Source: Hysterangium stoloniferum
Lineage: Eukaryota > Basidiomycota > Agaricomycetes > Hysterangiales > Hysterangiaceae
Direction: 5' to 3'
Length of the DNA: 64,000 nt
Assembly: GCA_015178975.1 (NCBI GenBank)
Contig: WHVD01000006.1
Span: 124,001 to 188,000, forward strand
The translations under genes were made by a program, and so were the position numbers. Of the stretch, positions 4,383-54,800 are shown in pieces (the stretch's first letter is position 1; each line of letters starts with the position of its first letter). The notes beneath the pieces were generated by a model. It was not told the DNA's origin. It worked only from the letters and a program-made list of their open reading frames with translations, and did no database searches.

Positions 4383-5023
4383 TGTGAAGTGTTGATAGAT
4401 TCTGACTGCTCAATATACGAAGAATAGTGTTTATTCAACTACTATTAGAAAGTATTGACCGTTCAGTACAATACTATAGATTACTAGACTGATAGTACTA
4501 GTATAGGGATGCACTACACGTCACAAGAGCAATTGTACAGTTGCTCGTGACGGTTAGAACAAGAGAATAAAAGAGTTGATCTTTACGGTACAACTGGTAG
4601 CTAGAAATAAGATAGATAATCAGTGAAAGACTGAATATCTAGGATGGAGAGATAGCAGCGGGAGTCAACTACAGTGTCAATGAGTGCAGAGTCTTGAGAG
4701 TGGAACTTGACCTTCACGGTTCAAGTCCAAATTCTATTAGTATGCTAGAAGACACTACCTCTATGGGTAGCTGAGTTATTACCCTTGACACCTCTCACTA
4801 TTCGACGTCTGAGTTGTTATGAGGTGGTGTCTGCTGGGTAAAAAGTGTCTTTTCATTTGATGCCGAGAGCGCCTATAGATATACACAAGGCTTTGAACTA
4901 AGAAATAAGGGTATGCTCGAAAGATATAGAGAATTAGAGAAAAGAAATAAAAACTAGATGATAAAGTACTATAATACGTCTATTATTCCACAGTCCAATC
5001 ATGAGATTTGCATACCCTTCACA
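4383..5023 (-). repeat. LTR of element C, 641-bp form
   Basis: It starts TGTGAAGTG and ends GCATACCCTTCACA on the plus strand, with TG...CA termini. It shares its end sequences and several internal blocks with the 474-bp LTRs at 9903 and 15290 but is clearly diverged from them. Confidence 0.75.
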
Positions 5024-6334
5024 GTGCCCCCCAGTTCGAAGGGATGTGCTATACAAGGTATCGAAGAGCATCTGGGACACCACCCCAAGCTTCCTGTGAG
5101 GATCCCCCAAGGTCCAAAATGATGTTTCCCCACCATTCCCTTTTCACTCTGAAAGATTTGGCTATTCTCACCTGAGCCAAATTACTAGAATCCCTGTGCA
5201 AGGAGTTGGCCCAGCATCTGTAGGCCTTCTCTCTGCAATGAATGACTGCACGGACACTAACTGGCAGAGCGGAAATCCATGTGAGAAGAGGAGCATTGGG
5301 GAGGGGAAATGAAGACGCGGGTAGCGGGGCAGGAACAGGTGTCTGGGTAGTGGTCTCTGTGGGAGGCGTCAGGACAAGAGCCTCGAGTAAATCTACGAGG
5401 CTGGCAATAGAGAGGATACTCACTGAGTCTGGGGGCAGACGGTGTGGTTCTACTATGATATGCCGAAACATAGAGAGTTTAATCTCCTGGGCTGCTCACA
5501 CAAAGTTTTCCCCCTCTGCAGGATCCTCGAAGGAGAGATAGAAGTCTTCCATAATCTCAGATGACGGAGCAAGACCGCGACAACCCTTAAGGCTCCCTTG
5601 AAGGAGCGGCTGCTGAAGTACCGGCACTAGCTGCGATAGCACCCTTCCGACAGGAAACTGTTCAGAAGGGTAGTTGACAGCTACTCGTGTCCAGAAAGTG
5701 GTGGAGATGAGCTCAGTTGGGGGAAGCGAGCTGTCAAGGATGGGAATAGGGGATCGCTCTGGGAGAGGAGTGGTAGCCTTCTGTATCTCCTTTGCCTTTC
5801 CGCTCGTCGGGGGAATGATGACGTCCGGTGTAAGAGGGTCCAAATTGACGTCCATTCGCTCCTGTGGAAGGTTGTGGATAGGGCTACCTAAGGACACACA
5901 ATATGAATACGGAGAGTTGGGAGGGATAGCCAGTGACGGTGGAAGTGGGGTAGGAACCGGTATAGCCTTGGGGGAAGGGGGTAGATGAAGCGCTAGAATC
6001 GGGGCCGGGGGAGTGTGTGCAGGGTGGAGGATGGGAGGGGGTCTTGAAGTTGGCGAAAGGCGTGGGACTGGAATCAGGGAAGGTTTGCGTTCCTGTGACA
6101 GTTGACTAGGATGACGACCACTCCATACTTTGGATGATGGTTGTCGTGTTTGTCGTTGATTGGGGTCGCTGGTCACGAAGCGAACTTTCGAGGGAAGGAG
6201 GAACCCTTTGTGACAATCCTCTCCCAGATATTGGATGCTATATGCATCATTCCTATCCTCGTCTTCCTCCCCATCCTCATCCGAGGAAAAATCAATTGGT
6301 CCCCTACAATATCCTTTTTCTTGTTGGGGCAGTG
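4383..6334 (-). mobile_element. LTR element C, partial copy (3' LTR plus 3' internal part)
   Basis: A minus-strand relative of the whole element at 9903-15763. Its 3' LTR (4383-5023) is followed by the same 3' signature as the whole copy: a stretch reading TATAGCACATCCCTTCGAAC and the polypurine tract CTGGGGGGCAC. Further in (about 5050-6330) lies a long, nearly open minus-strand frame that encodes a proline- and serine-rich, acid-rich segment without a known domain. The 5' part is missing because the oppositely oriented copy at 6335 abuts it. The frame is broken at least once. Confidence 0.7.
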
Positions 6335-6967
6335 TGTGAGAGGTACGGTGAAATACACTCAGGAAATATAGTCAGATGAGCTCTTACTATATTCCCTTTA
6401 TTATTTCTGTTTTCTCTCTATTTTATTATACATCTATAATTAGTTCGACGACCTATGTATGCGGTACATCGACTCTTGTGGGCACATACACACCAGACTT
6501 ATGTATTCTAGTGCCCGTAGTTAAAACTCAGACACCTTTACACCACAACCACGACTTACCCAGACACCTGTTAGTGTCCTGTAAGTTGTGATTGGTGTAT
6601 TGTCTCGACCGTCACAGACGGGCTTTAGCTATCTACTCAATCAGAGTTTCAAACTGTACCAGTCAAAACTCAATCCTTATCTCAACCCGCATGGACTACA
6701 TCCACACCACTCTATTATTTGACTCTCTAGTTACTCTACTTTACACTCGAGCAGTCGTCCAGAATCGCACTTAACAGTCGATTTTACTTATTCGTTCTAG
6801 CTCTCTACTTTACTCTAGATAGCTACTTCTCTCTACCATATTGAACTAAGTAGTCAATACACATCCAGTCTGTATTAGACTTAGACAGTCAATACATCTT
6901 AGTGTCGTACCTAAATGGTCGATATTCTTCGTATATAGAACAGTTAGAACTTCCACCACTCTTCACA
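6335..6967 (+). repeat. 5' LTR of the plus-strand element C copy
   Basis: It begins TGTGAGAGG and ends CCACTCTTCACA. At 633 bp it matches the length class of the 4383-5023 LTR rather than the 474-bp class. Read in reverse, its end matches the start of the other C LTRs. Confidence 0.7.
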
Positions 6968-7888
6968 GTGGTGATCTGGGCTGGACCGCTCTTTCCCTAT
7001 GAAGAAAAAACGATACTTTACGACTATTAGCTTCTAAGCATGTAAATGACCACTGGCAAGAATTAAATGCCGAGACCTTCGATGACCCCAAGTAGTTCAA
7101 AACCTTGTCAAAGACCTGCAAGTCTGGAACCACCCCGTAACATCACTATGAGGAAGTCTTCATTGACTTTTCAAAAACCAGTTCCTCCTGGAAGTTCCCT
7201 TGGAGCAGCAGCTGGACTGTCAACAGATGCCCCCCCAAGTCCACATGAAGAATGTCTGTCAACTGGGCAGTTGAACATTCCTGGAGCTAATGATGAGACT
7301 ACCCATGCTGCTGAACCCATTCTCTCGTTCCCACCTAGGCAGGTCATCCTTAGGCAATTCTTTGGGGGTCATATGGTTTACGCTCAGCCCATCGACTTAC
7401 AATGGGATGCGTACTACACTGATTGAATCCCTGTGGATCAGGTTACTCCCTTCATGGAGGAGTACAATATGGATTACCCTCTTTTACCAGTGACTGTAGC
7501 AGTCTGGTTAGGTCGTTATCAGGCCATTTTATTGGCACAGGATCTATTCACGTGACCTGGAACCCTTGAGGATCTGACCCGCTCAATTCCCGAATGGTCG
7601 AGTGAGGTTACTTCTGTTATGGAAGGAGGAAGGACAGTTCTTAAACAAGAAGTGTTCTCTTTATTTCTCGAAGCGCTCTGCACACATGATGATGCATTGC
7701 AAATCCTTCATGTCCTACTCGGTGGGGATCACATCATCCCCAAGGTTGACTACCAGTATATATACATCCGGATGTTGGAGGAGTCTCTTAACGGGATCAC
7801 TCGGAATTTGTCATTTGCGTATTTTACTTTAAGGGGTCGGTTAAGGCGAAATCAGAGGAGACTTGATAAGATGGTTTTGGAAGTGCTC
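6335..7888 (+). mobile_element. LTR element C, partial copy (5' LTR plus start of ORF)
   Basis: This is the plus-strand counterpart of element C. A 5' LTR (6335-6967) is followed by GTGGTGATCTGGGCTGGACC, almost the same leader as in the whole copy (GTGGTGATCTGAGCCGGAC), and then by the conserved protein core from about 7310 to 7888. Conserved blocks include FPPRQV, TVAVWLGRY, LHVLLGG and FAYFTLRGRL. It ends abruptly where the Gypsy-B 3' LTR begins at 7889, so Gypsy-B inserted into this ORF. The frame is broken in two or three places. Confidence 0.8.
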
Positions 7889-8428
7889 TGTTAAGTGCCG
7901 TGTCGGGAACTTATTCCGGAACTATCAGAAAGTCACCGGGAAGTCAGGAACTATCGGATAGGGTCAGGACGTCGGCTTCAGCTTATGTGCTGCACCTCTA
8001 CGCAAACACTCAAAGTCCTTAATTTCAGAAGTGAGACTTACGATGGAAGATATGGATATTCAGAGTTCCGAAGAGTTCCGAATATCGAGCGTACAGAAAG
8101 ACGGGAGAAGGAATAAGAAACTAAGTCGATATCAGATCTAAGGTAAAGTACAAATTCGCGAAAACTAATATAAGTCTTCTCGTTATTGTACTACAAACTG
8201 AGACCATAATAAGACGGCAACGGAAGTATTCTTAAAATGGAAATACAATAAGACATATCAGGGAGACAATATTCTGAAACAGGAATATAATAAACAAACG
8301 AGTGAATACTTGTCAACGGACAAATTACCAAATGCAGAACAAGGGAAGAATGCGGAAGATACAGTAGCTATGATGTTCCATAGAGATCGGGAGTCGGATA
8401 TTGAAACATCTGGGAATGGGTTGTAACA
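7889..8428 (-). repeat. 3' LTR of Gypsy-B (540 bp)
   Basis: On the plus strand it runs from TGTTAAGTGCC to GGGTTGTAACA and is followed by a polypurine tract (on the minus strand CCTAACAGGGGGGTAC). Solo copies of the same LTR with perfect target-site duplications occur at 21608 and 39658. Confidence 0.85.
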
Positions 8429-8551: not shown

Positions 8552-9566
8552 CTGAGTATAAAAACCTCCAAATATTCGAATTAACGTTTTTGTTTCTTTA
8601 TCCACAACTTGCATGTTGATTCGTCGGCCATTATTCATCACTACCCCAGAAGATTCAGATACCGAAATTGCTGTACTTCCAAAAATGTCGAAGGTCACAG
8701 AACTTCAACAAAAACGACAAAGGATGGAGGAGTTGAAGCTACGACAGGAGGAGGAGGAAAAGGTGTTGATGCAGGAGTTGAAAGCGGCGGAAGAGGCGGA
8801 AAAACGGGAGTTGGAGCGAGTGAAGGCAGAAAGATTATGGCGGGAGTCAGAGGCGGCAAAAAAACGTGAGGAGATAAGGGAAGGAAAGGTAAGTGCAATC
8901 CGTAAATTTCCGTGGTTCCAACCGATAACTATTGGGTACAGTGAAAAGCTGTGGAGGTTGAGGTAGAGAGAGAGGCTGGACCTTCGAGTCCTAAAGTAAG
9001 TGCATCTACAAAAGGTCGGTATTTGATTAACTTCCGAAACAGAAGCCAAAGGTCAAGGCTCTGGAACGGATGGAAGTCATCCATGACAATCTGTGTTATC
9101 GATGTTCCATACGGAATATGACGTGTTGGAAACAGAAGGTAAAATGGGGTGGAACTTGCTATCCCTGATGGGCATTGAGCTCCTCAAGGACACCATTGAC
9201 GCATTAGTCTTTATTGGAACGGAAGTCATGAAAATGCGGGATACACTAGATCGCCATAATGATATCCAGGAAAAGGGTTTCCATTCGTTGATCTGGAACT
9301 TCCAGAGGCAAAACAAATTTCTGGAGAAGATAATGGTTAGCATCGGTGTTATCGCAGTATCCGAGAGGTTTTCCAATAAGGCACGGGAACAGCCTAATGA
9401 TCCATTGGCGGAATGTGTCGAGAAAAGGTGGGAGTCAGGAAATGGGCCGGAAGTATCAGAGAGTGAGGATGAAGAGGTGCAGGATATGGTGGAAAGTGCG
9501 GAGGTTGCTGATGAGATGGGAGTCGGGATGGAAAGTGGATTTGAGGTATCAGAGACTCTAAAATAG
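8552..9566 (+). pseudogene. Antisense gene inside Gypsy-B: coiled coil plus Cys-rich motif
   Basis: On the strand opposite to gag-pol, between the chromodomain and the 3' LTR, lies a gene-like unit. A TATA-type sequence (GTATAAAAACC, 8552-8562) precedes an ATG at 8613. The first exon (to about 8888) encodes a Lys/Glu/Arg-rich coiled coil and ends at a good 5' splice site (AAAG|GTAAGT). A second donor-acceptor pair frames an intron of about 45 bases before 9045. The next coding part contains a cysteine motif C-x2-C-x6-C followed by WKQKVK and GGTC, then a helical stretch and an acidic tail ending at 9566. The same layout recurs in the second Gypsy-B copy (42060-44049). It is part of a fossil element and carries at least one break here. 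The cysteine spacing resembles fungal zinc-finger clusters, but no function is established. Confidence 0.6.
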
Positions 9567-9902
9567 TCCTAATAATATTTTTTTTGACTTGCAAAACCTA
9601 AAAACAAGTGTGATATCGGAAGTGTCGGAAGTGTCAGAGACTGAACAGAAAGAAACAGAAAAGGGTTAGAGTGATGATAAAGGTCCAGGTTTACTTGGAT
9701 AAGCTGTGTGGAAGTCAGTAACAATTTCCATAGCGTGTCCAAGTTCCGTGGCCAATATCCATGAAGTTTCCTCGTCGGTACCTTCATAACCTGCCCATTT
9801 GACTAAATAGAGCAATTTACAAGTACGTCAACAATTGTCGATTTTAGAATCCAAAATTTCAGAAACTTCAAATTTAGGTTCTCCATCAATGATGACCAGA
9901 GG

Positions 9903-10376
9903 TGTGAAGAGTGGCGGAAGTTCTGACCGTTCTATATATGAAGAAATGAGTAGAAAGGAAGGATATTGACCTATTCGGTGCAATATAAGAGAAAGTGAGA
10001 GAAAGAGTATGAGATGACGAAGGAGTCAACGAGTGCGATGGTTCGAGTGGAGGCCTCGACTATTACAGTTCGAGGCCAGAAGTGCTCAGTAGTTCAGATA
10101 TTGCTACTTATGTAGTAGCTGACACGTTACCCTGATCACCGCTCGTAGTAGACCTAGTTTGTGTCTTACGAGTGGTGGTTCTTGGGTTAAAGTGTGTCTG
10201 AGTTCTAATTGGTGCTGAGTGCACCCACAAGTATACACAATGCTTCGAACTAATGAAATATGCAATATTCGAAGAATATGAAAGATAGAAAAATATGAAT
10301 AGAATATGTAAAATATAAATAAAATAAAAGGAGTGTTTTACCACAATGAAACTGTGGTAAAAGCATACCCTTCACA
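9903..10376 (-). repeat. 3' LTR of element C (474 bp)
   Basis: Runs from TGTGAAGAGTGGCGG to GCATACCCTTCACA on the plus strand. It matches 15290-15763 except for about three substitutions. Confidence 0.92.
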
Positions 10377-10920
10377 GTGCCCCCCAGTTCGAAGGGATGT
10401 GCTATACGAAGTTCTGGAAAGCTTTGGGGATGCCCCCCAGGTATTTTGTGTGGAGCCACCCAAACTACAAGGTGCCAAGACCCCAGTATTCGAAGAGAGG
10501 TTGGTGGGTTTAGGAGCAGTAAGGGAAGATGTCGATGTAGAAAAAGGGAGGGAAGGGAAGGGGAAAAAAATAGATCCATTCTTTTCCTTCAGTCCCTAGT
10601 CGAGCACTCCTTCAGTCCTCGAACAGCAAATGGACTACTTGATAGCCTTCTAGACACTGCCACATTGTCTCCTTCCAGGACACGAGGCATTCCTCATAGT
10701 AGATGTCCTGTAGGCGGACAGACTGTCATGTAACTCGTTGGGCAGTGCATCTTGGGGTTAGGAGGGTAAGCTATCATTAGAGTCCATCGGAATCTCCTCC
10801 TCCTTAAATGAGTACCGGAGGAGGTTTATGATGCTTTGCTGTGGCGAGATAGTGTAAGACTCGGGATTAGGATCTTTCCATGCTGCTAGTCTATGGGACC
10901 TAGCAGCATGCCAGGATGTA
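10377..10920 (-). other. 3' internal end of element C
   Basis: Starts with the polypurine tract (minus strand CTGGGGGGCAC) and a block conserved with 5024-5110 of the partial copy. The remaining minus-strand sequence is open only in short runs and has no recognisable domain. Confidence 0.5.
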
Positions 10921-10985
10921 TACCCTATACCCCCTATACCGCCCCCCACTTTGCGATATTGTGATTCCACCACGATCTCGCAAAT
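10918..10985 (+). repeat. Direct repeat bounding the non-coding insert of element C, left copy
   Basis: Shares TATACCCCCTATACCGCCCC, TTGCGATATTGT and ATCTCGCAA with 13817-13885. The two copies are about 70 bp long, diverged and in the same orientation, and they bracket the repetitive 2.9-kb part of element C. Confidence 0.6.
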
Positions 10986-11759
10986 TACCCATTATTGTGC
11001 ACAGTTAGGTTGCAGTCTGTGTTCCCGAAAGGTCTAGCCCATGGCAGGTCTAGAAAGTGTCCAGGAATGCTTCAAGTAGGTAGACGAGTCCGGAGGAAAA
11101 AGAAAAAATCATGAAATCGACTGAGTTCAGTACGATTGTAATAATGAACCCGAATACGGTACTTGAGTTGGGTGTGTACACATTCCTCACTCCAAAATCC
11201 CAACACTGGCACATAACTGCTTTTCCTGCCCCCGTCACAGCCGAATTTGACATCACAAGTCATGCCTATCGAAAATGTGTGTCGTCGCTATGCCTAACGA
11301 AAGCACATGAACTGAAATCGAAAGTGAAAGGGGTGAAGGGGAAAGAGTCCCTGTCACCGTCGTTGTTGCCTCGTCACAGACGTCGCACACCTTCCTGACA
11401 CTCATACTACGATGTCAACCTGGACCGCCGCCACGCCTTGTTGGAAGGCATGCGCTGCACTGAACCCAAACCCGAACTTGTCGAACAATGCTGCATATAA
11501 TGGATGGGTAACCGGGCATTCGTGACGAGTTCCATGTACCCAGGAGGGGAAAGAGCCCGTGTCCATTGGCGAAATACTGTCAGGGCATGGTGTTGTGTGG
11601 CCAGAGGATTGCAAATTCGACCACAAATGACAAGCGCGTTGGCGTGGCTCATGAACTCCATTAGAAGTCAGCATCCATCGGTGAGGTCATTGAGGCATGG
11701 TGTTATGCAGCCCGTGAGCTACGAGCGCATCAATGTAGTATATCTTCAAGCTGTGCCCC
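10986..11759. other. Non-coding part of element C
   Basis: No coding region with a recognisable domain. Several overlapping frames are open on both strands by chance because of the GC content. Nothing further is seen. Confidence 0.4.
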
Positions 11760-12250
11760 CACACCGTATTTGCGCACCCATGTAGCACAAGTTGCGCCCT
11801 CATGTAGCCCAGTCGCATGGTTGTACCGTTGCGCAGTCGCACCATCACGCCGTCGCGCTGTAGCACAGTCGCGCCGTCGCGCCGTCGCGCTGTAGCACAG
11901 TCGCGCAGTTGCGCCGTCGCGCTGTAGCACAGTCGCGCAGTCGTGCCGTCGCGCACCCGTGCAGCGCGGTCGTGCAGTCGCACCCTCGTACAGCGTGATC
12001 GCGCAGTCACACTGTCGTGCAGTCGCACCGTCGCGCTGTAGCACAGTCACGCAGTCGCGCCGTCGCGCACCCGTGCAGCGTGGTCGTGCAGTCACGCACT
12101 CGTACAGCGTGATCGCGTAGTCACACCGTCGTGCAGTCGCACCGTCGCGCTATCGCATGGTCGTACAGTCGCGCCGTCGCGCACCCGTGCAGCGCGATCG
12201 TGTGGTCGTGAACTCTTGCAGCGCAGTCACGCAATCGCACCATCATACCC
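11760..12250. repeat. Degenerate GC-rich minisatellite (CGTCGCGCTGTAGCACAGT)
   Basis: A run of imperfect units built from CGTCGCGCTGTAGCACAGT, CGCAGTCGCGC and CACCCGTGCAGCG. The open frames across it on the minus strand (RDGATARLC-type repeats) are products of the tandem array, not genes. Confidence 0.75.
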
Positions 12251-12689
12251 CGTCCCTCTATTTTTTGACGTTCCTTTGAAACAACCTCTGCTAGACCAGA
12301 TTCCCCGGACGTCTCCCTGACCAAGAGAAGTTCCGTCGACGCCATTTCCCGCAAGTCAACAACGTCGTGGGATAGTAGTAGTGTCGATGCTGATGACAAG
12401 GAGTGGGGAAGAGTACGAGACCGAGGTCAGGACCAAGACCGATGTCGAGACAAGTCAGAAAGGAAAAGCTTTGACTATTTCAGTACAAAGCTTTAACAGA
12501 GGGGAAGGCTAAGAGTAGATGACGTTGAAGGTTGAGATGGCGTGAAGGCGTCGTTATGAGGTGACACGGCCCCGTGTCCACATGTGTCCACAAGTTTTGA
12601 AAGTCAGTCCTTTACTCTGTTTCGTACTCGACTGTCGACCTCACACCATCTCCTTGCTGTTGAAGGGACTGGTTAAGGTATGTCCACTT
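12251..12689. other. Non-coding part of element C between the two arrays
   Basis: No supported gene. The sequence is less repetitive than its flanks, and no domain was recognised on either strand. Confidence 0.4.
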
Positions 12690-13790
12690 CTCTGGCATTG
12701 TCTTGCTCGGTGATGCCATCCACAAACTGACTTGCACACCTTTGAACCGCTGTGCAGCGCACCCTTGAACTACACTCCTGCCGCACTTTGCGCACTCGCA
12801 CAGCACGCCCTCGAACTGCACCCATGCAGTGCGGTTGCGTACTCTCAAACCGCACCCACCACCATGCGTTGTACCCATACGCCGTACCCATACGCCCACA
12901 CCCCTACGTTCGTACCATACGCCCACAAACTGCGCCTTCGTACCGCACTTGTGCACCCATGGGGCGTACTGGCATCCCTGCAGGACGCAGTCGTGCATCT
13001 GCGTGTCCTTGCAGTGTGCTAGTGCACTTGCACGGCATGTGTGCACTCCCGTGCAATGCGCTTGCGCACTCGCGCAGTACGTTTGCACACCTGTGCAGCG
13101 CACTTGCGCACTCGTGTGGTGTGCTTGCACACCCATGAGCCGCGCGCACGCACCATATCCATGCGCCACGCGCACGCGCACGCATCACGTCCACGCGCCG
13201 TGCGCACGCACCACGTCCATGCACCTCCACACACCGCACGCACGCGCCACGTCCCCGCGCCACGCGCACACGCCACGTCCACGCGCCTCCACACGCCGCG
13301 TGCACGAACCACGTCCACGGTCGTGCGCACGCACCATCTCCACGCCCCGCACGCGCGCACTACATCCACGCGCCACACGTGCGCACCCTCACGCGTCGTG
13401 CGTGCGCACTTTCATGCGTCGCGCGCGCGCACATTCACGTGTCGCGCAGCGCACTGGCGTCTTCAAACTACGCCCATGCGCCGCACCTGCGCACCCGCGC
13501 AATTGTGCCTTCAAACCATGCCCACGCACCGGACCTGCGCACACCTGCATCTTCAAACCATACCCACGCGCCACACTTGCACACTCTCGCAGCATGCTCG
13601 CGCACTGCATCCAGCTCTCGACCATTTCATTGGCGAGACTGGTGACGCAGTCGTTTGCATGCTGCCACACCTGCATCCATGCACCACACCCATACTCCCG
13701 CACACTTGCACCTATGTGCTCACGCACTGCACCCCACTCTCGACTGTTCTATCAGCGAGAGTGGTGACAAAGTCGTTTGCATGCTCTTGC
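12690..13790. repeat. Degenerate GC-rich array (CGCACGCACCACGTCCACG)
   Basis: Over a kilobase of imperfect units of about 18-25 bp such as CGCACGCACCACGTCCACG and TTGCGCACTCGTGCAG. A further unit containing GTCGTTTGCATGCT occurs twice (about 13650 and 13770). Frames of up to 312 codons are open on several frames and strands at once and encode only Arg/His/Thr/Ala-rich repeats, so they are not called as genes. Confidence 0.75.
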
Positions 13791-13814
13791 TGGCAATAGG
13801 TGACGATCCCGTAT

Positions 13815-13885
13815 GTGCCTTCTCCTATACCCCCTCTACTGCCCCCCTGTTGCGATACTGTTGTTCCAGAACAATCTCGCAACAT
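13815..13885 (+). repeat. Direct repeat bounding the non-coding insert of element C, right copy
   Basis: Right-hand partner of the repeat at 10918-10985, with the blocks CTATACCCCCTCTACTGCCC, TTGCGATACTGT and AATCTCGCAAC. Confidence 0.6.
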
Positions 13886-14044
13886 AATGATTGTCCCCTA
13901 CTTGATGTAATCTTTTGAGGGAGCGCCCTGGGTCGAACGGAAATGTATCCGTCCTTGGCTTGGTCTGTCGAGGGGTATCCTTCGCGGTGTGTCCATGATT
14001 GACTTCCATTCGCAGAAACCTTGTCAGTGCCCCCCATTCTGGAA

Positions 14045-15208
14045 CTAGGGGTTTATGTCGACAAATTCCCGTGGTATCTCCATGGGAAAGCTTTGGTTGA
14101 ATCCTGCAAGATGGGATCGCTTTACTGTTGGTGAGTTCTGTCCCATGCCTTTTATATCCTTAAAACCATCATCTGATTTCTGCTCCCCAGTTCCCAGGCC
14201 TCTACTGCAATCCCAATCATTCGAGCTATTGGACGACTTGTTGGAGGGTCCACTCGGGGAAGTAAATGGGATAGGATGGATAGGTGATGGATGGCAAGAT
14301 TCGTCAGGACACTGCGAATCTCGACCTGAGGATGATGGGGAACTGGAGATGACCTTGACTGTGATCTTTTCTGCAGACACATTCGAGAAAGACGACTGTC
14401 CTTTTTTGGCAGTTGATCTGGCATAGATTCCAGGACATTCTTCGACAAAGGGACCAGAGCTGGAGGATGAAGATGTTCGTTCTGGCTCATCAAATCTACT
14501 AAGCAATTCCACCTTCATCTTGTTACATCTCTCCAGGTTGTGCATCAATCTTGACCTGAGAGTAAAGTAGGCGAAACACACATTCGAGGGTTTACCGTAT
14601 ATGGATTCCTTCAACATTTGAATGTATCTGAAATCCATATCGACCCTTGGCATGATGTGGTTCCCTCCGAGCAATACATGCATAATCTGTAGCAGATCAT
14701 CATGTACACAAAGCAAATCGGAGAGCAGAATGAACAGTTCCATCTTGATACCCGCTATTCCCTTTTCTCGGAAGAACATCACTTCGTTTGACCACTTCGG
14801 GATCAACTTTGTTACCTCGTCGAGAGTTCCAGGCTGAGTGAATAAATCATGTGCTGATATGATGCCATGATACCGACCTAGCCAAACTGCTACTGTTGCA
14901 GGCATGGATGGGTATCTAGTCCTGTAATCCTTCGTGGCAGCAATGACCTTATCCCTTGAAACTCGAGAAGCATAATAGGAGCTCCACTTCACATTGACAG
15001 GCTCTGAATAAAGTAATTGACCATGATGCTCGAGCATAACTTGTCTCGGCGGGAAGACCAGTGTATCCTTCATGAAGATGCGAGCATTTTGCCTTTCCAA
15101 GGGACTCGACTGCTCGAAGTTCGAGTTACCTTCCATTTGACCAGATTCGCAACGCTCAGCGTGCGAGAAGTTCCAGACAGCGTTTTGTGAAGTTGCAAAT
15201 GTTGACAC
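14045..15208 (-). CDS. Conserved protein of LTR element C, unknown function
   Basis: One uninterrupted 387-codon frame starting about 80 bp inside the 5' LTR, where gag normally begins. I do not recognise the family. Residues about 50-240 form a compact core with mixed helices (FPPRQVML, ATVAVWLGRY, IMHVLLGGNH, FAYFTLRSRL), followed by a Ser/Pro-rich tail of about 140 residues. No zinc knuckle, protease DSG motif or polymerase motif is present. The same core is encoded by the copy at about 7310-7888, which I judge by eye to be about half identical, with conserved spacing. That divergence with retained blocks suggests selection on the protein. By position a Gag-like structural role is the simplest guess, but a captured host or regulatory protein is also possible. 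Confidence 0.75.
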   Translation of the reverse strand: MSTFATSQNAVWNFSHAERCESGQMEGNSNFEQSSPLERQNARIFMKDTLVFPPRQVMLEHHGQLLYSEPVNVKWSSYYASRVSRDKVIAATKDYRTRYPSMPATVAVWLGRYHGIISAHDLFTQPGTLDEVTKLIPKWSNEVMFFREKGIAGIKMELFILLSDLLCVHDDLLQIMHVLLGGNHIMPRVDMDFRYIQMLKESIYGKPSNVCFAYFTLRSRLMHNLERCNKMKVELLSRFDEPERTSSSSSSGPFVEECPGIYARSTAKKGQSSFSNVSAEKITVKVISSSPSSSGRDSQCPDESCHPSPIHPIPFTSPSGPSNKSSNSSNDWDCSRGLGTGEQKSDDGFKDIKGMGQNSPTVKRSHLAGFNQSFPMEIPREFVDINP

Positions 15209-15289
15209 TTCGCAGCTGTGTAGTTAGAATTTCGTATTGAATATAAAATTTTCTTCGTAGGGAAAGTACGGTCCGGCTCAGATCACCAC

Positions 15290-15763
15290 TGTGAAGAGTG
15301 GCGGAAGTTCTGACCGTTCTATATACGAAGAAATGAGTAGAAAGGAAGGATATTGACCTATTCGGTGCAATATAAGAGAAAGTGAGAGAAAGAGTACGAG
15401 ATGACGAAGGAGTCAACGAGTGCGATGGTTCGAGTGGAGGCCTCGACTATTACAGTTCGAGGCCAGAAGTGCTCAGTAGTTCAGATATTGCTACTTATGT
15501 AGTAGCTGACACATTACCCTGATCACCGCTCGTAGTAGACCTAGTTTGTGTCTTACGAGTGGTGGTTCTTGGGTTAAAGTGTGTCTGAGTTCTAATTGGT
15601 GCTGAGTGCACCCACAAGTATACACAATGCTTCGAACTAATGAAATATGCAATATTCGAAGAATATGAAAGATAGAAAAATATGAATAGAATATGTAAAA
15701 TATAAATAAAATAAAAGGAGTGTTTTACCACAATGAAACTGTGGTAAAAGCATACCCTTCACA
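15290..15763 (-). repeat. 5' LTR of element C (474 bp)
   Basis: Near-identical partner of 9903-10376. On the minus strand it is followed by the leader GTGGTGATCTGAGCCGGAC. The AGAGG duplication follows it at 15764-15768. Confidence 0.92.
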
Positions 15764-18700
15764 AGAGGGGACGGAGGTTGAATATGTTCTGGGATTTTGT
15801 TAGGAACACAGGGTTCTAACATGGAAATGTGGAAAATGGGGTGAACTGCTCGCATACTATCGGGAAGTCGGAGAGTCCATGAGAGTGAACTGGCTTGTGC
15901 TATAATTTCAAAAGGGCCTAAGAATTTCTCAGTGAGTTATTTAGAAGGTCAGGTAGTACGGAAGAATTGAGCTTTTACAAAAACCTGATCACCGATTTTA
16001 AAATTAGGAGGTGGGATCCTGTTTTTGTCTGTGGAACGTTGGTAATATTCCTGGTGCGGAAGAAATAGCTTTCTGAAGTTCTTGATGTAATTCGTCGAGA
16101 TCGGTAATAAATTCTTGAGCACGGACAGAAGCCAAATCTCATTCAGAATGTACAGTGAGATGCAGATTATAGCCTTTGTTGGCGAAAAAAGGAGATACAC
16201 TGGTAGTTGCATTCAGAGAGTTATTGTAGGCAAATTCCGCAATCGGAAGAAGGGATTTCCAGTTGTCCTGTTGATAATTGTAATAGATGTGGAGATATTG
16301 TTCCAATGTTTGATTTACGCATTCCGTTTGTCCATCACCTTCCAGATGATATCCCGAGGTGAAGTGTAGTTTCATGTCGAGGGCTTTTCTGAGGGCCTGG
16401 AAGAAATGGGAGACGAACTTGGAGCCTCGATCGGAAGTTATGTGAGATGGAACTCTGTGTTTGGAAAATACGTGAATAATGAAAAGTTCTGCTAATTGTA
16501 AGGATGTGATTGTATCATGAGTGGGTATGAAAATGCCTTGTTTTGAGAATCGATCCACAATAACTAGAATGGATGTAAAGCCTTTAGATGTCAGGAGTTG
16601 TTTGATAAAATCCATGGAAATTGAGTTCCAGGGTTTTTCTGGTATCGGAAGTTGTTTGAGAAGGCCGTACGGCTTATGCCTCTGGGTTTTAGAGCGTAAG
16701 CAGGTGGTGCATGACTTACAGAACTGAGTTACAAATCTTGGAGGTTGGGCCAAGTATATTCTCTACGGATTAAACCAAGAGTATTGTTAATGCTGTAATG
16801 TCTGGAGATTGGATGATCGTGTTTATACTGAAGTACGCAGAGTCGGAGATTGTTGGAATCTGGAACATAGATACGTCCATTGAGATGGATAAAACCTTGA
16901 GAGTCTTGTGACCATCGGGGTTGACCGGGATTGTCAGGAACTCCTAGATGTGGCTTGAGAGCTGGATCGGAAGTCAGTGCGGAAAGGATATCTTGATGTA
17001 ATTGCTCAATGTCCATAATCATGATGCTACGCATAATTGGATAGTAGAGGGAAGTTGCTTGAATAGATGCAGAAAGTTGTTGCGTTGTAAAAACCGGTTT
17101 CAAGTTATGCGGATTAACAACGGCATAGTTACTTTCCCCCTCTTTAGGATAGACGTCCCATTGTCGAGTCATGGCATCTGGTTTTCCACCAAGACGTCTG
17201 GGTCGGAAATGGATAATCATGTTGAAAGTGGAAAGGAATTCGGACCAGCGGGCTTGCCAGCGGGTTAAAAGTTTAGTGGTAGAAAAATATTCGAGATTTT
17301 TGTGATCGGTAACAATGTCAATGGGAGTTGCGGAACCTTCGAGATAATGGTGCCAATGTTTGAAAGCTTCAAAAATTGCTAAAAGTTCCTTATCATGAAC
17401 ATCATAGTTGAGTTCGGACACTTTCAGTGTCTGAGAAAGGAATGCAACCAGATGAATTTCACCATTGGAATCTTGAATGGAAAGAATCGCAGCAATTGCA
17501 TAATCGGAAGCATCGGTTTTCACAATAATTGGAACATCAGGTTTCCAATGGGAAAGAATCGGGGCAGAAGTGAAAGCATTTAAAGTCTGGAAAGCGGAGC
17601 GGCATTTATCGTCAAAGACCCATGGTTGAGTTTTACGGGTAAGACGAGTGAGCGGTACTGTAATATCCGAATAATTCCAAATAAAATGATGGTAAAAGTT
17701 GGCAAAGCCTAAAAATGACTGAATGTCCTTGACTTTTCGTGGTTCGGGCCAATCATGGACAACTTGAACCTTGGTTTCATCCATACAGAGACCCTCAGGT
17801 CTGATAATGAAACCTAAGTATTCAATAGAATCCATATCAAAGTAGCATTTTTTACCGTTGGCGAAAAGACCGTTTTTACAGAGTCTTCGGCATACTTCAC
17901 GGACCTGTTCATCGTGAAGAGTGGGATCTTCGGAAAATACCAAAATGTTGTCCAAATAGACTATAACACATACGTCAAGCATGTCGGAAAATATATCATT
18001 AACAAAACGTTGAAAAGCAGAAGGGGCATTGGTAAGGCCGAATGGCATAACCAACCATTCAAAGGATCCATAGTGAGTCCGAAAAGCAGTTTTCCATTCA
18101 TCGCCCTTGGCATTTTGGACCAAATGATAGGCGTGTTTGAGGTCTATTTTGGTGTAGATTCGAGCTTTCCGTGGGGCGTCGAGTAAATCGGTAACAAGTG
18201 GAAGTGGATACTTATCTTTCCGTGTGATGGAATTTAATCCTCTGAAATTGACACAGAGTCGAAGGGAGCCATCCTTCTTTCTGATGAAAAGGACGGGTGC
18301 TCTGTACAGAGACTTTGAGGGACAGATAAAACCTATCGACAGATGTTCATCCAGGAACTCCCGAATAGACAAAAGTTCCGACTGGGATAATGGGTAAATA
18401 GGTCCTAACGGAGGGTTTGAACCGGGCTCAATATCAATTTTTAAGTTGTAGGGCCTATGTGGTGCAAGCCTGTCAGCTTTTTGCTTACTGAAAATGTCCG
18501 CAAAATCATGGTATTTTTTGGGAACTCCTTCCAGGTCAGCTTTTAGCTCGGATAATTCTGGAGTCACAAAACGTCCAGATGCTTCATCAACTTTTAAGCT
18601 GATCGAAAAACACTGTGAACCATCCAGTTTACTCGCCCTAACAAATGCCGAAGTGTTGATGAGAGAGATTTTTGGAGGCATGGAGGTTTCAGTAGAAGCC

Positions 18701-18804
18701 GTTGATGCCATTGATGCCGAAAAGGCATTGGCCAGAAGAGACGCTGCAGGAGGAACCAAAGTGTTGGGAATTCGGAAATTAATACTGCCCCAATACCCAG
18801 TCAA
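15764..18804 (-). pseudogene. Gypsy-B pol: reverse transcriptase, RNase H, integrase, start of chromodomain
   Basis: Read leftwards from 18804, a long open stretch encodes reverse transcriptase (start region with VNFRGLNSITRKDKYPLP and the catalytic box VYLDNILVFS), then RNase H (IVKTDASDYAIAAIL, HDKELLAIFEAFKHWHHYL), the integrase zinc-binding part and the catalytic core (SISMDFIKQLL, ITSDRGSKFVSHFF, QTECVNQTLEQY) and the linker to the chromodomain. The enzyme would copy the element RNA and insert the cDNA. The Tc1 insertion separates it from protease and gag, and element C cuts its end. It is a fossil with only a few breaks. Confidence 0.85.
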
Positions 18805-23502: not shown

Positions 23503-24226
23503 TGTTACGACCGTGTCGCAACCCTATCGGTCCCGAGGTTATCGCCACCTATCAATGTTTCAAGTCACCGTCTCGGAAACCATCGGCCCCGAAGCTGACG
23601 TATGTTTTCGCGAAGATCAAACTCCGTTTACGCCCACGTCAAAATAACTCGTATTGTCTGGTCAAACTTTGATACGTCCCCTTTTATTATGTTGATACGT
23701 TCAATCTTATGTTTCATATATGTCTATCTATATTTGTAGTCCTTGAACTATTTCCTTTTATCGTAATCCCACTCTCGGTTATCATCAGCCTCTGAACTAA
23801 TCATAAACCTCCCGTTCCTAGTCAAGCTTATTGTTAATACCGTTTTCCGCCCTTCTCCCCATCAGTATTTTCTAGATGCCTGTTACTTGTATATGAACCC
23901 ACTGTAGTTGTAGTTACTAGGCAATCAGAATATCGACTCAGAATACCCTCATACGTCTGTAACAGTCTCATACTAAGAATCCCCCATCCACCTTTGCGTG
24001 CGCTCGCCCACTTCCGGCCCTGACCCCCTTGGCCTGACGCTCGACTTGTCCTTCGGTTCCGATCGGTATCTCGCCGAGAGGAGCTCTTTAGGATTAGTCT
24101 TCACCCGCCTGAAATTTAAAAACACCCTACAGATATTTGCGAGGGTGCAGCACATAAGCTGAAGCCAAGTCCTTCCGATTGGTCCCTGTCGGCCACTGAC
24201 ATTTAGTCAGTTTTCAGTTCTTAACA
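23503..24226 (+). repeat. Diverged Gypsy-A LTR, directly followed by a minisatellite
   Basis: Starts TGTTACGACCGTGTCGC and ends CAGTTCTTAACA. It is 724 bp long and lacks the long CTCAGTCTCCGACT array. It joins the preceding LTR head to tail, but no matching target duplication is seen around it, so the junction may come from recombination rather than simple insertion. Confidence 0.8.
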
Positions 24227-25072
24227 ACTGGTTGGAGAACGGAAACTGGTTGGAGAACGGAAACTGGTTGGAGAACGGAAACTGGTTGGAGAACGGAAAC
24301 TGGTTGGAGAACGGAAACTGGTTGGAGAACGGAAACTGGTTGGAGAACGGAAACTGGTTGGAGAACGGAAACTGGTTGGAGAACGGAAACTGGTTGGAGA
24401 ACGGAAACTGGTTGGAGAACGGAAACTGGTTGGAGAACGGAAACTGGTTGGAGAACGGAAACTGGTTGGAGAACGGAAACTGGTTGGAGAACGGAAACTG
24501 GTTGGAGAACGGAAACTGGTTGGAGAACGGAAACTGGTTGGAGAACGGAAACTGGTTGGAGAACGGAAACTGGTTGGAGAACGGAAACTGTTTGGAGAAC
24601 GGAAACTGTTTGGAGAACGGAAACTGTTTGGAGAACGGAAACTGTTTGGAGAACAGAAACTGTTTGGAGAACAGAAACTGTTTGGAGAACGGAAACTGTT
24701 TGGAGAACAGAAACTGTTTGGAGAACAGAAACTGTTTGGAGAACAGAAACTGTTTGGAGAACAGAAACTGTTTGGAGAACAGAAACTGTTTGGAGAACAG
24801 AAACTGTTTGGAGAACAGAAACTGTTTGGAGAACAGAAACTGTTTGGAGAACAGAAACTGTTTGGAGAACAGAAACTGTTTGGAGAACAGAAACTGTTTG
24901 GAGAACAGAAACTGTTTGGAGAACAGAAACTGTTTGGAGAACAGAAACTGTTTGGAGAACAGAAACTGTTTGGAGAATGGAAAGTCTTTAAAGAACGGAA
25001 AGTCTTTAAAGAACGGAAAGTCTTTAAAGAACGGAAAGTCTTTAAAGAACGGAAAGTCTTTAAAGAATGGGA
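24227..25072. repeat. 18-bp minisatellite, 47 units in homogeneous blocks
   Basis: The unit ACTGGTTGGAGAACGGAA is repeated perfectly about 20 times, followed by three ACTGTTTGG...CGGAA units, then about 17 ACTGTTTGG...CAGAA units (with one reversion and one end variant), and five AGTCTTTAAAGAACGGAA units. The block structure shows local expansion of single variants. Because 18 is a multiple of three and the unit has no stop, long frames are open on both strands; these are not genes. Confidence 0.95.
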
Positions 25073-25470
25073 AACAATGGCTATAAAAGGAAACAACAGT
25101 TACAAAAGGACACAATGGTCACCAAAGGAAACAATGGTCACAAAAGAAAACAGCAGTCACAAAAGGAAACAATAGTCACAAAAGCAAACAACATTTACAA
25201 AAGCAAACAATGGTTACAAAAGGAAACAACAGTCACAAAAGGAAACAATAGTTACAAATGGGAACAACAGTCACAAAAGAAAACAATGGTTACAAAAGGA
25301 AACAACAGTTACAAAAGGAACAATGGTTACAAAAGGACTAATGGTTACAAAAGGACTAATGGTTACAAAAGGACTAATGGTTACAAAAGGACTAATGGTT
25401 ACAAAAGGACTAATGGTTACACAAAAGGACCAATGGTCACAAAAGGAACAACAGTTACCAAAGGAAGAAC
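25073..25470. repeat. Degenerate 19-bp then 18-bp tandem array
   Basis: Directly continues the minisatellite with about twelve imperfect units of TTACAAAAGGAAACAACAG (19 bp), followed by about six nearly perfect units of GGTTACAAAAGGACTAAT (18 bp). Confidence 0.9.
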
Positions 25471-27039
25471 AGTTCCAATAGTTGTTTTGGTGGGTGCAAT
25501 GGGCCCTCCCGTGCCACCTCACTCACATTGTGCCCTCCTGCACCACCTCACTCACGTCACCAGTGTGTTACATCATGAATACGCATATTTGGGTGTTCCG
25601 CAAGGGTGCTGGCAGGTGCGACGGCCCCTCATGTGCCACCTTACTTGTGTCGCGCAACCCGACATGTTGCATGTGTATGTGGGGGGTCCATCGCATCTGT
25701 CAATGTGCGTGTGAGTGGGGCAGCATGGACCTGTGTATTATTACCTAACTCTAAGGGTGGCTGCAGTTCCTAAAAACAATTACAATAAATTTCAGAATTG
25801 TGGGAAATGGTGAAAAATGCCAGTCAATTAAATGAAATACCCATAAACCTGTAAATCCACTAAATCCAATAGAATTCCAGTAAATTTCAGTAAATTCTAA
25901 TTAAATTCAGTTAAATAACATTGTTAAACTGTTCTATTCCTGACCATTCTGTTACATCCTTTGTGGACTGTTATTCCATCCTCATTGATATTTTGCAAAG
26001 ATTTTAAATAAATGTATAGCACCCAGTGTAATTACCAGAGGCTTGGGATACTAAGAGTGATTATTCCATAAGCTTCTACAGATGAGAGGGGCATTCTGAG
26101 TCAATATTTAAACTGAAGGGTAGTAGTGTACAAGATCAGGTTTTATACCAATGTAAATGGAAACATGGAGGACTGAAAATGGAGATTTTATATTAACAGA
26201 ACACAGGAAATTAGGAAAATGGAACAGTGGGTCAAGAAAAGGAATACAAGACCATAGAAAAAGATCAATACTCTGAGGTGGCAAATGATGTGGTGAAGTG
26301 ATGCAAGGGATGGAGTGGCTACAAAATGAAGTCATTAAGTAGGTGTGTTGTTAATATATTGTTATAAGAGATGTTGTTATTAGTGTTAGGATGTTAGAGA
26401 TAGTATACAATAGGTTGAAAATACACATTGGGGCCTGAATGATGTGGTTCCTAACAGGTAGGTTCTAACTTAATCTTTGAACTGGATATTAGTAGAATAT
26501 AAAACAATGATTTATACTAGAAAGTGTAATGACAGACAGATGAGTAGAAGAGAAGGGAAGTGGGGTATGAGTATGATTGAGAATAAATGGGAAACTGGAA
26601 TGTGCAGAAGCCCTCAATATAACATGGTCATGGAAGGTAATATAAAAGTAATGTGATCAAGTATTGAGGCACTATCAACAAAGATACCACAATCAAAGAA
26701 CCAATGTCAGGATGCTGGATGAATAATGATTGTGGAAGGATGTTTGAAGTGCCTGAAATACCTGTCATAATGGAGCAAAGCTGTGGTTGATACAAATGTC
26801 TCACAGAGTACTTTGAGTGTAAATTAGAGATGTGGCATTCATTGCTTGAATAACAACTATTCCAACTTTAAAACAATTGTTGTTCAGATTGGCTCAGGTA
26901 ATATAACAATAAGTCAGAGGTCAATCACTAAAATAGTATTGGCATCTGTACACTCCTGTGTTCTCACATGTACAGTTTTATGTTGATGCTTCAGGGAACA
27001 AGTTAAGGAAGAATGAAAATACTATTCCCAAGACAGATA
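25471..27039. other. AT-rich, CpG-poor stretch without recognisable genes
   Basis: After a short GC-rich part (25480-25740) the sequence is AT-rich and has no coding region longer than about 90 codons. No motif, terminal repeat or domain was recognised. The near absence of CpG beyond 25,740 suggests old, formerly methylated repeat DNA. Confidence 0.4.
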
Positions 27040-51537: not shown

Positions 51538-51824
51538 TAATAGCAACTTTAAGTCTCAGCAATATGCGATTCGCTATATATACGTTACCTAATAGCAACT
51601 TTAAGCTACAAATACATATGAGTTTGTTTGTTTTTGTAAATGATAACACCTAAGTACTTACTCTCAGCGATATGCGATTCGCTGAGAGTTCCACCTTACT
51701 ATACTACACGTATATAACAATACATTTTAAGAGGAGATTCAAACCGAAGTTAATTATGTCATTTTGAGACATACACTGTCTCATTTTTCCGTTTGCGCAT
51801 TCTTCAAGGCTCGATTACCTAACA
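51538..51824 (-). repeat. 3' LTR of the copia element
   Basis: Contains a perfect 10-bp hairpin stem, CTCTCAGCGA paired with TCGCTGAGAG, at 51661-51688 with an 8-base loop, and two copies of TAATAGCAACTTTAAG. Confidence 0.93.
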
Positions 51825-54800
51825 CTCCTCCTCGAGTCTTGAAGAATTAAGACCTAGACGTTGTGTGTGATAAAGATGTGTGGCTGGGGAAAGTGTTTTT
51901 GTCAATATATCCGCAATCATTTCCTTGGTTGACCGATATATGAGTTGAATAGTGCCGTTTTGGATTAAATGCCGAATAAAATGATATTTAACCTCAATGT
52001 GTTTGATCCTTCGCAAGGTACATTGGTTATTCGCGAAAGCTATTGTGCCTTGGTTGTCTTCAAATATTGCCGTCGGTTCTTCGTATACTATGTCGAGTTC
52101 TTCCAAAAAATGACGCGTCCACATGACTTCCCGAGCCGCTTCCGAAAGTGCTATGTATTCCGCTTCTGTAGACGAAAGTGCTACCGTCGTTTGCTTTTTC
52201 GAAGACCATGATATCGGCCCTGAACCTAGAAATAACACATAACCGCTTGTGGATCGCCGATCCTCGGTGTCACCAGCGAAGTCGGCGTCTGAGTACGCGT
52301 GCAAACATAACGCATTTCCTCCGAGTTTCAGTTCAAAATTTCGGGTTGTGTATAAGTATTGAAGAATGCGTTTCGCTAAGTTCCAATGGGTTTGTGCTGG
52401 GTTTGATGAATACTGAGATAACTTGTTTACAGAATACGCAATATCAGGTCGCGTTACAATTGCTGTAAACATAAGGCTGCCGATTAGTTCGCGATACGGT
52501 AACTTCATAGTATCTTGGCGTTCTTCATCGGTTTCTGGACGCGTTATTGAAGAAAAATCAATCCCAAGGGGAATGGGAGTGTGCGTGGGTCTTGTATTTT
52601 GTACGTTGAATTTCTTCGCTATGCTCTCAATATAATCCATTTGCGATAGAAATATTGATTTGGATTCTTCGTCACGTCGTATATTCGTTCCAAGAATCCA
52701 ATGCGCATCCCCTTCGCTAGATATTCCGAATCTTTCGTCGATCGCCTTTTCTAATTCGCGAAGTCGGCTTTCGTCTCCCACACTTGTAGCATCATCCACC
52801 CAAAACGCTACAACAGCCCAACTTCCGTCTTCCCACGTCTTGAAAAAAACGGCGCTATCGAAGTCGGAACAAATCCATGCGAGTTCGTTGACCATAAAGT
52901 TGTACAACGTTTTTCTCCACTCGTTCCCGCCTTGTTTTGTTCCATACAGCGCCTTCAATAACGGCAGCGCTAAGTGCTCTTTTCCTGGCTGTTCAAACCC
53001 TTCTGGTTGCTGTACCCACACTCTTTCCTTCATTATCCCGTGGAGATATGCCGATTTAACGTCAAATTGCCGTATCGGCATATTTTTGATCGCGCCCAGA
53101 GCCAATAGAATTCGAAAGGATTCCCACTTCATTACAGGTGCGTATGTTTCGTTGAAGTGTAATCCAGGAATTTGGCTAAACCCTTTTACGACTATGCGTA
53201 CCTTCCTTTTTACTAGCTTGCCATTCTTATAGGATCCACGACACACTGTTCCCGTTTTCAAGATACGCGTTCCTTGCGGCGGCTCTTCTGGGGGACCAAA
53301 TACCTCGTGATCAATCATATTCTTCCACTCTTTTTGTCGTGCCTCTTCCCAAGCTTTACCTTCCTCTCCAGGCATTCGCAACGCCTCTTCGATTGTTGGA
53401 TCTTTTCCCATTGCGGAGTACATTACCGGTTCGTCAGCCGTTTCTAATGTTGCACTACTGATAGTTCCGCGTAGCTTTCCCGACCTCGTTTTGCCTTGTG
53501 GATAATCAGGTACGTTGGACACCAAACGAGATTCCTTAATTGGTTCGCTGACTTCTGTTTCATCCGTCTGTCTGGGCCGCGGAGGGATACGGATTGTCAG
53601 TTTTGGTTGAGAAGGTAGTTGACTTAACGTTGTTGGTTGCGAAGGTATGTTCCTATCTCCTATTTTCTTAAATTGACCCTCGTCTTCATAAGGAACCGGA
53701 GTCGGCAATATCATAACGTCTTCATGAAACACAACATCTCGTACTTTTTCAATACGACTCGATCCTGGAAACCACACCAAATATCCTGTCGAATATGGTT
53801 CGTACCCAACCATAAATCCTCGTTTCGAGCGCGAATCCCATTTTTGTCTCCTTTGTTTAGGTACCGCTACACTTACTGGGCTCCCGAATATGCGCAAATG
53901 TGATAAATCAGGTTTTTCTCCAGTAATCATTTCGATCGGAGTATGACCATTGTTTGCGCGTGCAGGGCAACGGTTCCTAAGGTATGCCATTGTTTTTACT
54001 GCGACGGACCAGAGAGACTTAGGCAATTGAGATGTATAGAGCATGGACCTGGATTCATCAATAATCGAATACTTCAATGCACAAAGCATAGAACGCGCTC
54101 CCTCCGTTATGGTACATATGTTTCTTTCCGCAACTCCATTTTGTTGTGGCGTATATGGGACTGATGTGAATAATGACATCCCTTTCGAAGCTAGATAATT
54201 CTTGAAGTCGGCATTAATAAACTCGGTTCCATTATCCACCATGACGCCTTGAATCTTTGCGTCGAATAATGTTTCGAGACGAGACACATAGGTTCGTATT
54301 TTCATTATAGCTTCGAATTTGCTTGATAGCGTATCCACCCAAATAGCACGTGAGTAATCATCAACGATGATGATAAAATATCGCTTTTTATCGAAACTTA
54401 ACGTTTCCATAGGTCCCGCAAGATCCATATGGAGAAGTTCACCTATTTTCGTAGCTCGAGATCGTCCCGATTTAAAAGGCCACTTATGTTGCTTTCCCTC
54501 AAGACAAGCGATACAATCTCCATCCGATTGGACAACATTTTCGTCAATTGATATTCCTGAAGCGAAACGGCGTGCAAGGTCTTTTACTGCGGAAATATTC
54601 AAATGACCTAGGCGTTGATGCCATGTCATTATATCGCATTTAGATTCCATTGAGTAGGCCATTGGTACGTCCTCTAATCGATCCTGCAATTCTTCGTCTG
54701 ACGATTTTGTATATTGACATATATCAGGCGTCGCGGGGATTATATTCAATTGGAATGGGTAAACATTGCCCCTTTCTTTCGCCTCGATGATAGTACGGCC

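Follow-up and report, generated by a model that had tools for sequence, protein, structure and literature searches.

In the 64,000-nucleotide stretch of contig WHVD01000006.1 of Hysterangium stoloniferum analyzed here (the window), positions 9903-15763 hold a long terminal repeat (LTR) retrotransposon that is very probably a non-autonomous (semi-autonomous) Ty3/gypsy element, one that goes back to a gag-pol ancestor and depends for its copying, in trans, on an abundant complete family of the same genome. Protein alignments show that its 387-codon frame corresponds to the N-terminal segment of that family's Gag, ahead of the zinc knuckle, and the core of this protein has been conserved at the amino-acid level during the spread of copies. 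An earlier note, made from the letters of the window, had proposed a non-autonomous lineage with a selected protein of its own kind; its observations are partly confirmed and its interpretation is partly supported. The features of the element are as follows.

9903-15763, minus strand: whole LTR element, 5,861 bp
15290-15763, minus strand: 5′ LTR (the right-hand one), 474 bp, with the ends TGTGAAGGG...CTTCACA
15271-15288, minus strand: primer binding site (PBS), complementary at 16/18 nt to the 3′ end (with CCA) of a tRNA-Val(AAC)-like gene
14045-15208, minus strand: 387-codon frame, N-terminal pre-zinc-knuckle segment of Ty3/gypsy Gag by homology to the autonomous Gag
14474-15061, minus strand: conserved protein core, about residues 50-245, under purifying selection
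10790-14044, minus strand: filler rich in tandem repeats, about 3.3 kb, replacing most of gag-pol
10598-10789, minus strand: degraded integrase relic with one stop, colinear with the complete partner (36% over 64 aa, 42.4 bits)
10363-10470, minus strand: 3′ end of a partner-type open reading frame (ORF) downstream of pol, with polypurine tract (PPT) and LTR start; DNA 82% identical to the partner
10377-10385, minus strand: G-rich PPT core GGGGGGCAC, adjoining the 3′ LTR
9903-10376, minus strand: 3′ LTR, 474 bp
9898-9902: target site duplication (TSD) AGAGG, left, directly outside the LTR
15764-15768: TSD AGAGG, right, directly outside the LTR

The two LTRs differ at 3/474 positions, and their TG...CA ends together with the short TSD define an LTR retrotransposon. 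The near-identical repeats, the AGAGG duplication outside both ends and the G-rich tract at 10385-10377 had all been pointed out in the earlier note, and all three hold. From 5′ to 3′ the order is 5′ LTR, PBS, 387-codon frame, filler, integrase relic, post-pol ORF end, PPT and 3′ LTR. The frame is open, as had been claimed, with the corrections that it runs on the minus strand, begins with GTG in the ORF listing and has an end that is not typical, since 18 of the 30 protein loci that were cut out have a longer open frame, of 438-538 aa. The tandem-repeat filler of sibling copies is similar but variable. Beyond the degraded integrase relic no trace of pol was found in the element; the reported lack of integrase motifs is correct for intact domains, not for this degraded stretch.

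The complete family was sought in the assembly of the genome (G000, 111 Mb in 554 contigs). The pattern of LTR end plus PBS occurs 621 times there, vs. once for the reversed pattern, and that of PPT plus LTR start 177 times, vs. 0 for its reverse; these counts are far beyond chance. From the same-strand PBS-PPT pairs lying about 9.9 kb apart, two stretches, L069 and L070, were chosen by eye among the places listed. L070 (G000:C24) is a full-length Ty3/gypsy element. Its LTRs measure 648 and 644 bp, align with 21 mismatches and 4 gap columns, and are flanked by the TSD CCAAT on both sides. Its Pfam matches over the cut-off, in separate frames, are RVT_1, RT_RNaseH, RT_RNaseH_2, Integrase_H2C2, SH3_Tf2-1 and Chromo, and its parts follow the order Gag-N region, CCHC segment, reverse transcriptase (RT), RNase H, integrase zinc domain, Tf2-type SH3, Chromo and a long post-pol ORF, with RT ahead of integrase as is diagnostic of Ty3/gypsy. 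Other partner copies have a single frame of up to 2322 aa running through Gag and RT, indicating that intact-looking copies exist despite the breaks in L070. Among the matches listed, Gag and RT are spaced 3507-3523 bp apart in 29/42 pairs. In the unbroken Gag of locus L089, the N-terminal part leads on to a CCHC knuckle, which scores 22.1 bits in a shorter piece, for a cut-off of 20.8, and 20.3 bits in a longer piece, and is followed by what we take to be a DTG motif.

Two routes to the partner were abandoned. L069 (G000:C1), although delimited by a 9.9-kb PBS-to-PPT pair, turned out to be a nest of pieces in which no pol frame was seen, and none of the 150 best Pfam RVT_1 matches lay shortly behind a PBS junction on contigs C1-C44 (judged by eye, with about 100 of the 621 junctions listed). 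The partner's long ORF after the chromodomain, at the position of an envelope gene, lies on the minus strand at L070:49-2177 and, in the window, at 5496-6176. This post-pol ORF gave no Pfam match; it has 212 matches in the genome, with open frames of up to 950 aa.

The window protein aligns with L070 at 44% over 137 aa (E = 3e-34) and, in the preceding frame, at 41% over 34 aa (E = 9e-8). The non-autonomous sibling L044 and the unbroken Gag of L089 share 48% identity along 168 aa (E = 1e-51) and, in the linker, 35% along another 94 aa (E = 1e-4). The window frame stops short of the stretch that leads to the CCHC knuckle in L089 and matches no Gag family, so that its gag is incomplete. The profile searches that the earlier note had proposed were run against Pfam, NCBIfam and PDB sequences: neither the 387-aa protein (best Pfam E = 0.13) nor its profile gave a Pfam match over the cut-off, an NCBIfam match or a significant match to a PDB sequence.

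The ends of the two families are related as well. The window element and L070 agree in all of the 28 nt preceding the 3′ LTR and in the first 14 nt of that LTR, and the LTRs as a whole are homologous (alignment score –21, vs. –291 ± 17 for 200 shuffles). The PBS differs between the two at 1/18 nt; measured against the 3′ end of a tRNA-Val(AAC)-like gene, it matches at 16/18 nt in the window element, at 17/18 in L070 and at 18/18 in 8 of the 29 protein loci with a PBS. Apart from that one nucleotide, PBS, LTR termini and PPT are common to both families, and these are features by which an autonomous/non-autonomous pair is recognized (PMC9744471, as given in PMC11302176). The tRNA pattern occurs at 12 places, and the 10 that were fetched comprise 2 Val, 2 unassigned and 1 Thr gene and 5 places with no tRNA; the genes fitting the PBS, at L083 and L084, are tRNA-Val(AAC)-like and carry a short extra stretch after the anticodon that may be an intron.

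The score of the integrase relic, 42.4 bits, compares with at most 26.9 bits in 400 dinucleotide shuffles, or 32.3 bits when every L070 frame is tried, and the relic is also present in copies L011, L017 and L038. The relics are colinear with the partner (LTR end and PBS, Gag-N, integrase, post-pol ORF end, PPT, LTR start), which argues for descent from a gag-pol ancestor. A DTFPFDPG motif after the Gag-N tail was considered as proof of a second junction and discarded as too short (E = 0.06-0.6). In a tree of the core with 36 rows, 32 non-autonomous rows split from 4 autonomous-like ones with a support of 100 in the Shimodaira-Hasegawa-like approximate likelihood ratio test (SH-aLRT); one autonomous row contained a stop, which was treated as a gap. 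Window-type LTRs with TSDs of their own sit inside partner Gag (L015) and partner RT (L030), showing that both families share the genome.

The genome-wide search for copies and for an autonomous partner, also proposed in the earlier note, was thus productive on both sides: it returned 113 scored protein matches and, in L070, the partner family. Full-length LTR matches at 98-100% number at least 40, the window's own two included, a lower bound given by scoring the best 40 of 2171 first-look candidates. Solo LTRs, flanked directly by a 5-bp duplication, make up 20 of the 30 LTR loci cut out, and LTR, leader and frame are common to most of the 30 protein loci. No stop interrupts 34 of the 61 protein copies spanning at least 330 aa (a recheck of the stop count took in 60 of these; the one left out, C168:73487, has stops). 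At L059 and L064, a partial tandem duplication within the protein tail, at about element position 1368, gives rise to frames of 534-538 aa.

Comparison of 30 copies gave a ratio of replacement to synonymous substitution rates (dN/dS) of 0.23 for the core (residues 50-245). Core variants shared by at least three copies include 47 replacement changes where 63 were expected, a value as low being reached in 0/1000 simulations, whereas core singletons fit neutrality (47 vs. 44 expected). Constraint in shared but not in singleton variants shows that it acted while the lineage spread and that copies drift after landing. These results uphold the proposal of a non-autonomous lineage whose protein is under purifying selection, for which the earlier note had suggested a dN/dS comparison. 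Outside the core, shared variants show no replacement deficit in the tail (56 vs. 50 expected) and no significant one in residues 1-50 (10 vs. 12 expected; 175/1000 simulations).

One alternative is that the copies are plain deletion derivatives, in which single gag-pol copies lose their middle and decay and the protein appears conserved only through recently functional parents. The earlier note had held that larger copies of the family with ordinary pol would reduce the element to this. Related full-length, pol-bearing copies that share the core do exist, and the colinear relics (Gag-N, integrase piece, post-pol ORF end, PPT) are what such deletions would leave. The non-autonomous copies, however, form one clade away from the partner, and synonymous sites in pairs with the partner are saturated (synonymous divergence, pS, 0.74-0.86), whereas pairs within the clade have synonymous rates (dS) of 0.05-0.76 and core dN/dS of 0.15-0.46. 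A listed partner RT lies on the same strand 1-9 kb downstream in 1/106 typed protein copies, at 7256 bp rather than the usual 3.5 kb (7 of the 113 matches, all short fragments, were left out of the typing). A separate clade, the near-absence of listed partner RT and saturated synonymous sites together argue against recent deletion, and constraint confined to shared variants points the same way. We therefore regard simple deletion as rather unlikely.

That the RNA under the frame serves as a packaging or priming signal, with the protein as a by-product, is very unlikely. The first 50 codons do show low pS (0.12 for residues 1-20 and 0.07 for residues 20-50, vs. 0.19 for the core), as such a signal would predict, but the core combines much synonymous with little replacement change, and amino-acid similarity between the lineages outlasts synonymous saturation. 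This combination indicates constraint at the protein level. Capture of a host or viral gene unrelated to Gag, the second half of the earlier suggestion of "a divergent Gag or a captured factor", might have been read from the empty family searches; it now has next to no credibility and is refuted as stated, because the core lies within the partner's Gag frame (at least 95 scored matches, open frames up to 2322 aa; 48% over 168 aa between L044 and L089). The first half, a divergent Gag, came close to the truth, although the protein is not of a kind of its own, the same core being the N-terminus of the partner's Gag. Finally, the fragment may be an inhibitor or competitor that enters partner particles and limits copying, the lineage persisting as a parasite. 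A precedent is Ty1 p22, a shortened Gag with an effect in trans on the full-length protein (PMC4599808), but p22 is the C-terminal half of Ty1 Gag, not the N-terminal part of a Ty3/gypsy Gag, and selection in a mobile lineage favours its own spread, for which interference is not obviously useful. We consider this reading unlikely.

Several observations weigh against a gag-pol-derived lineage copied in trans by the L070-type family. The tail (residues 245-362) has a dN/dS of 0.60, close to neutral, and the synonymous sites are too saturated to date the split from the partner. L070, with its frame interrupted in that part, gave no match to the integrase core model (rve) in any of its pieces, and the middle region of the partner's Gag matched no capsid family, so that the label "pre-capsid" rests on the order N-domain, middle, CCHC, DTG motif and RT. 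A listed partner Gag lies within 9 kb downstream of 3/106 copies (at 2.1, 4.1 and 5.7 kb), and such neighbour counts depend on the best 123 of 3803 candidates for partner RT and the best 95 of 1551 for Gag. An autonomous partner closer than the L070-type family could also exist.

If the element is indeed copied in trans, the partner would supply capsid, nucleocapsid, protease, RT and integrase, and the course would be that proposed for such pairs in PMC11302176. Transcription would start from the LTR, the element would enter particles built by the partner's Gag, tRNA-Val would prime reverse transcription by the partner's RT, and the partner's integrase would join the shared TGTGAAG/CTTCACA tips to the target. 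The retained Gag-N fragment may help the element into these particles; we see about an even chance that the lone protein either docks on the partner's Gag or links the element's RNA to that Gag.

The cores appear to have been exchanged. Compared with window positions 15289-14014, L071 and L072 have a core of 56-68% DNA identity followed by a tail of 90-97%, while L073 and L074 combine a leader of 90-96% and a core of 70-85% with a tail below 60%; the breaks in these mosaics fall near residues 50 and 235, indicating that divergent cores sit in shared backbones. A search with the L071 core found 28 more places, at 57-98%, ranking above the first window-type copy (by visual count, with a few shorter places further down), 22 of which have stops, with no open frame above 386 aa. 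In wheat, RLG_Quinta A and B are reported to have exchanged their gag region (PMC11302176). Tentatively, Gag-N might be a swappable "boarding pass", the sole Gag domain kept under selection, which docks the element's RNA or protein onto partner particles and whose divergent cores are traded between near-identical elements.

Among known systems, the element is best read as a semi-autonomous derivative of the wheat RLG_Quinta/RLG_Cereba type, retaining the pre-capsid Gag segment alone. RLG_Quinta is likewise non-autonomous, with a Gag-type ORF of its own and an autonomous Gypsy partner; LTR termini, PBS and PPT are common to the partners, Gag is conserved as protein and barely as DNA, and gag regions have been swapped between sub-lineages (PMC11302176). 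In RLG_Quinta a GAG domain is accompanied by a domain of unknown function (PMC11302176), where the window element has the pre-zinc-knuckle segment only, and the RLG_Quinta/RLG_Cereba pair differs from ours in that the fungal partner has an extra post-pol ORF. Terminal-repeat retrotransposons with GAG domain (TR-GAG) of plants share with the window element LTRs, a gag-type frame and the absence of pol, and are defined as lacking the POL polyprotein region, which we read as implying a complete gag (PMC5818461); the label was rejected for the element, which has neither zinc knuckle nor middle region. Large retrotransposon derivatives (LARDs) have a similarly long internal filler without pol but are without coding regions (PMC5818461), and a selected frame with a core dN/dS of 0.23 sets the element apart from them.

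The wheat RLG_Sabrina_SA/NA families include semi-autonomous and non-autonomous Gypsy elements, in some variants of which gag-pro is replaced by other short ORFs; four Sabrina derivatives are described as encoding proteins without homology to other wheat proteins, whereas the window protein is clearly related to a protein of its partner (PMC9744471). RLG_Kyoko/RLG_Beelzebufo of a lichen alga are similar in that a deletion derivative encodes only a GAG protein and has a PBS and PPT identical to those of a chromodomain-bearing partner, but what is reported there is a GAG protein rather than a Gag-N fragment, and the elements are centromere-specific (PMC12542154). Ty1 p22 is likewise a fragment of Gag and has its effect in trans on the complete protein, but its source is an alternative Ty1 transcript and not a separate family (PMC4599808). 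Our literature search, beyond whose reach most subscription journals lay, turned up no fungal pair in which the non-autonomous member has Gag-N alone, which is weak evidence. A non-autonomous retrotransposon encoding a peptide has reportedly been described in powdery mildew (PMC6022647).

Semi-autonomous retrotransposons that keep gag were known before; here only the segment ahead of the zinc-knuckle part is retained, in many copies and under clear selection. A selected Gag-N fragment points to a trans function of a Gag domain that the family libraries searched do not recognize. The case also illustrates how an LTR element's "unknown conserved protein" can be resolved once its partner is located within the same genome, and the 113 protein matches with their clear partner form a comparative set for asking what a non-autonomous element must itself encode.

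Elsewhere in the window lie two fragments of the autonomous family.

6925-7894, plus strand: 5′ fragment with LTR end, PBS and Gag-N with stops, part of the earlier "diverged copy"
5010-6176, minus strand: 3′ fragment with post-pol ORF, PPT at about 5031 and the start of the 3′ LTR

The region 6335-7888 had been taken for a diverged copy of the same element; in the tree, its core falls on the side of the autonomous Gag, and stops interrupt its frame, so that this assignment does not hold. The window element itself is inserted in another chromovirus (9560-9902 and 15764-18804, minus strand), just upstream of its chromodomain-like coding; the RT and integrase frames of this host element lie on one side and the chromodomain-like coding, recognized by eye from the translation, on the other. 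At 51819-56129 (minus strand) there is an unbroken frame for a 1436-aa Ty1/copia-type polyprotein, so labelled from the listed translation, and 24207-25714 is a long tandem-repeat array with several frames open on both strands and ENGNWL/ENRNCL-like repeats.

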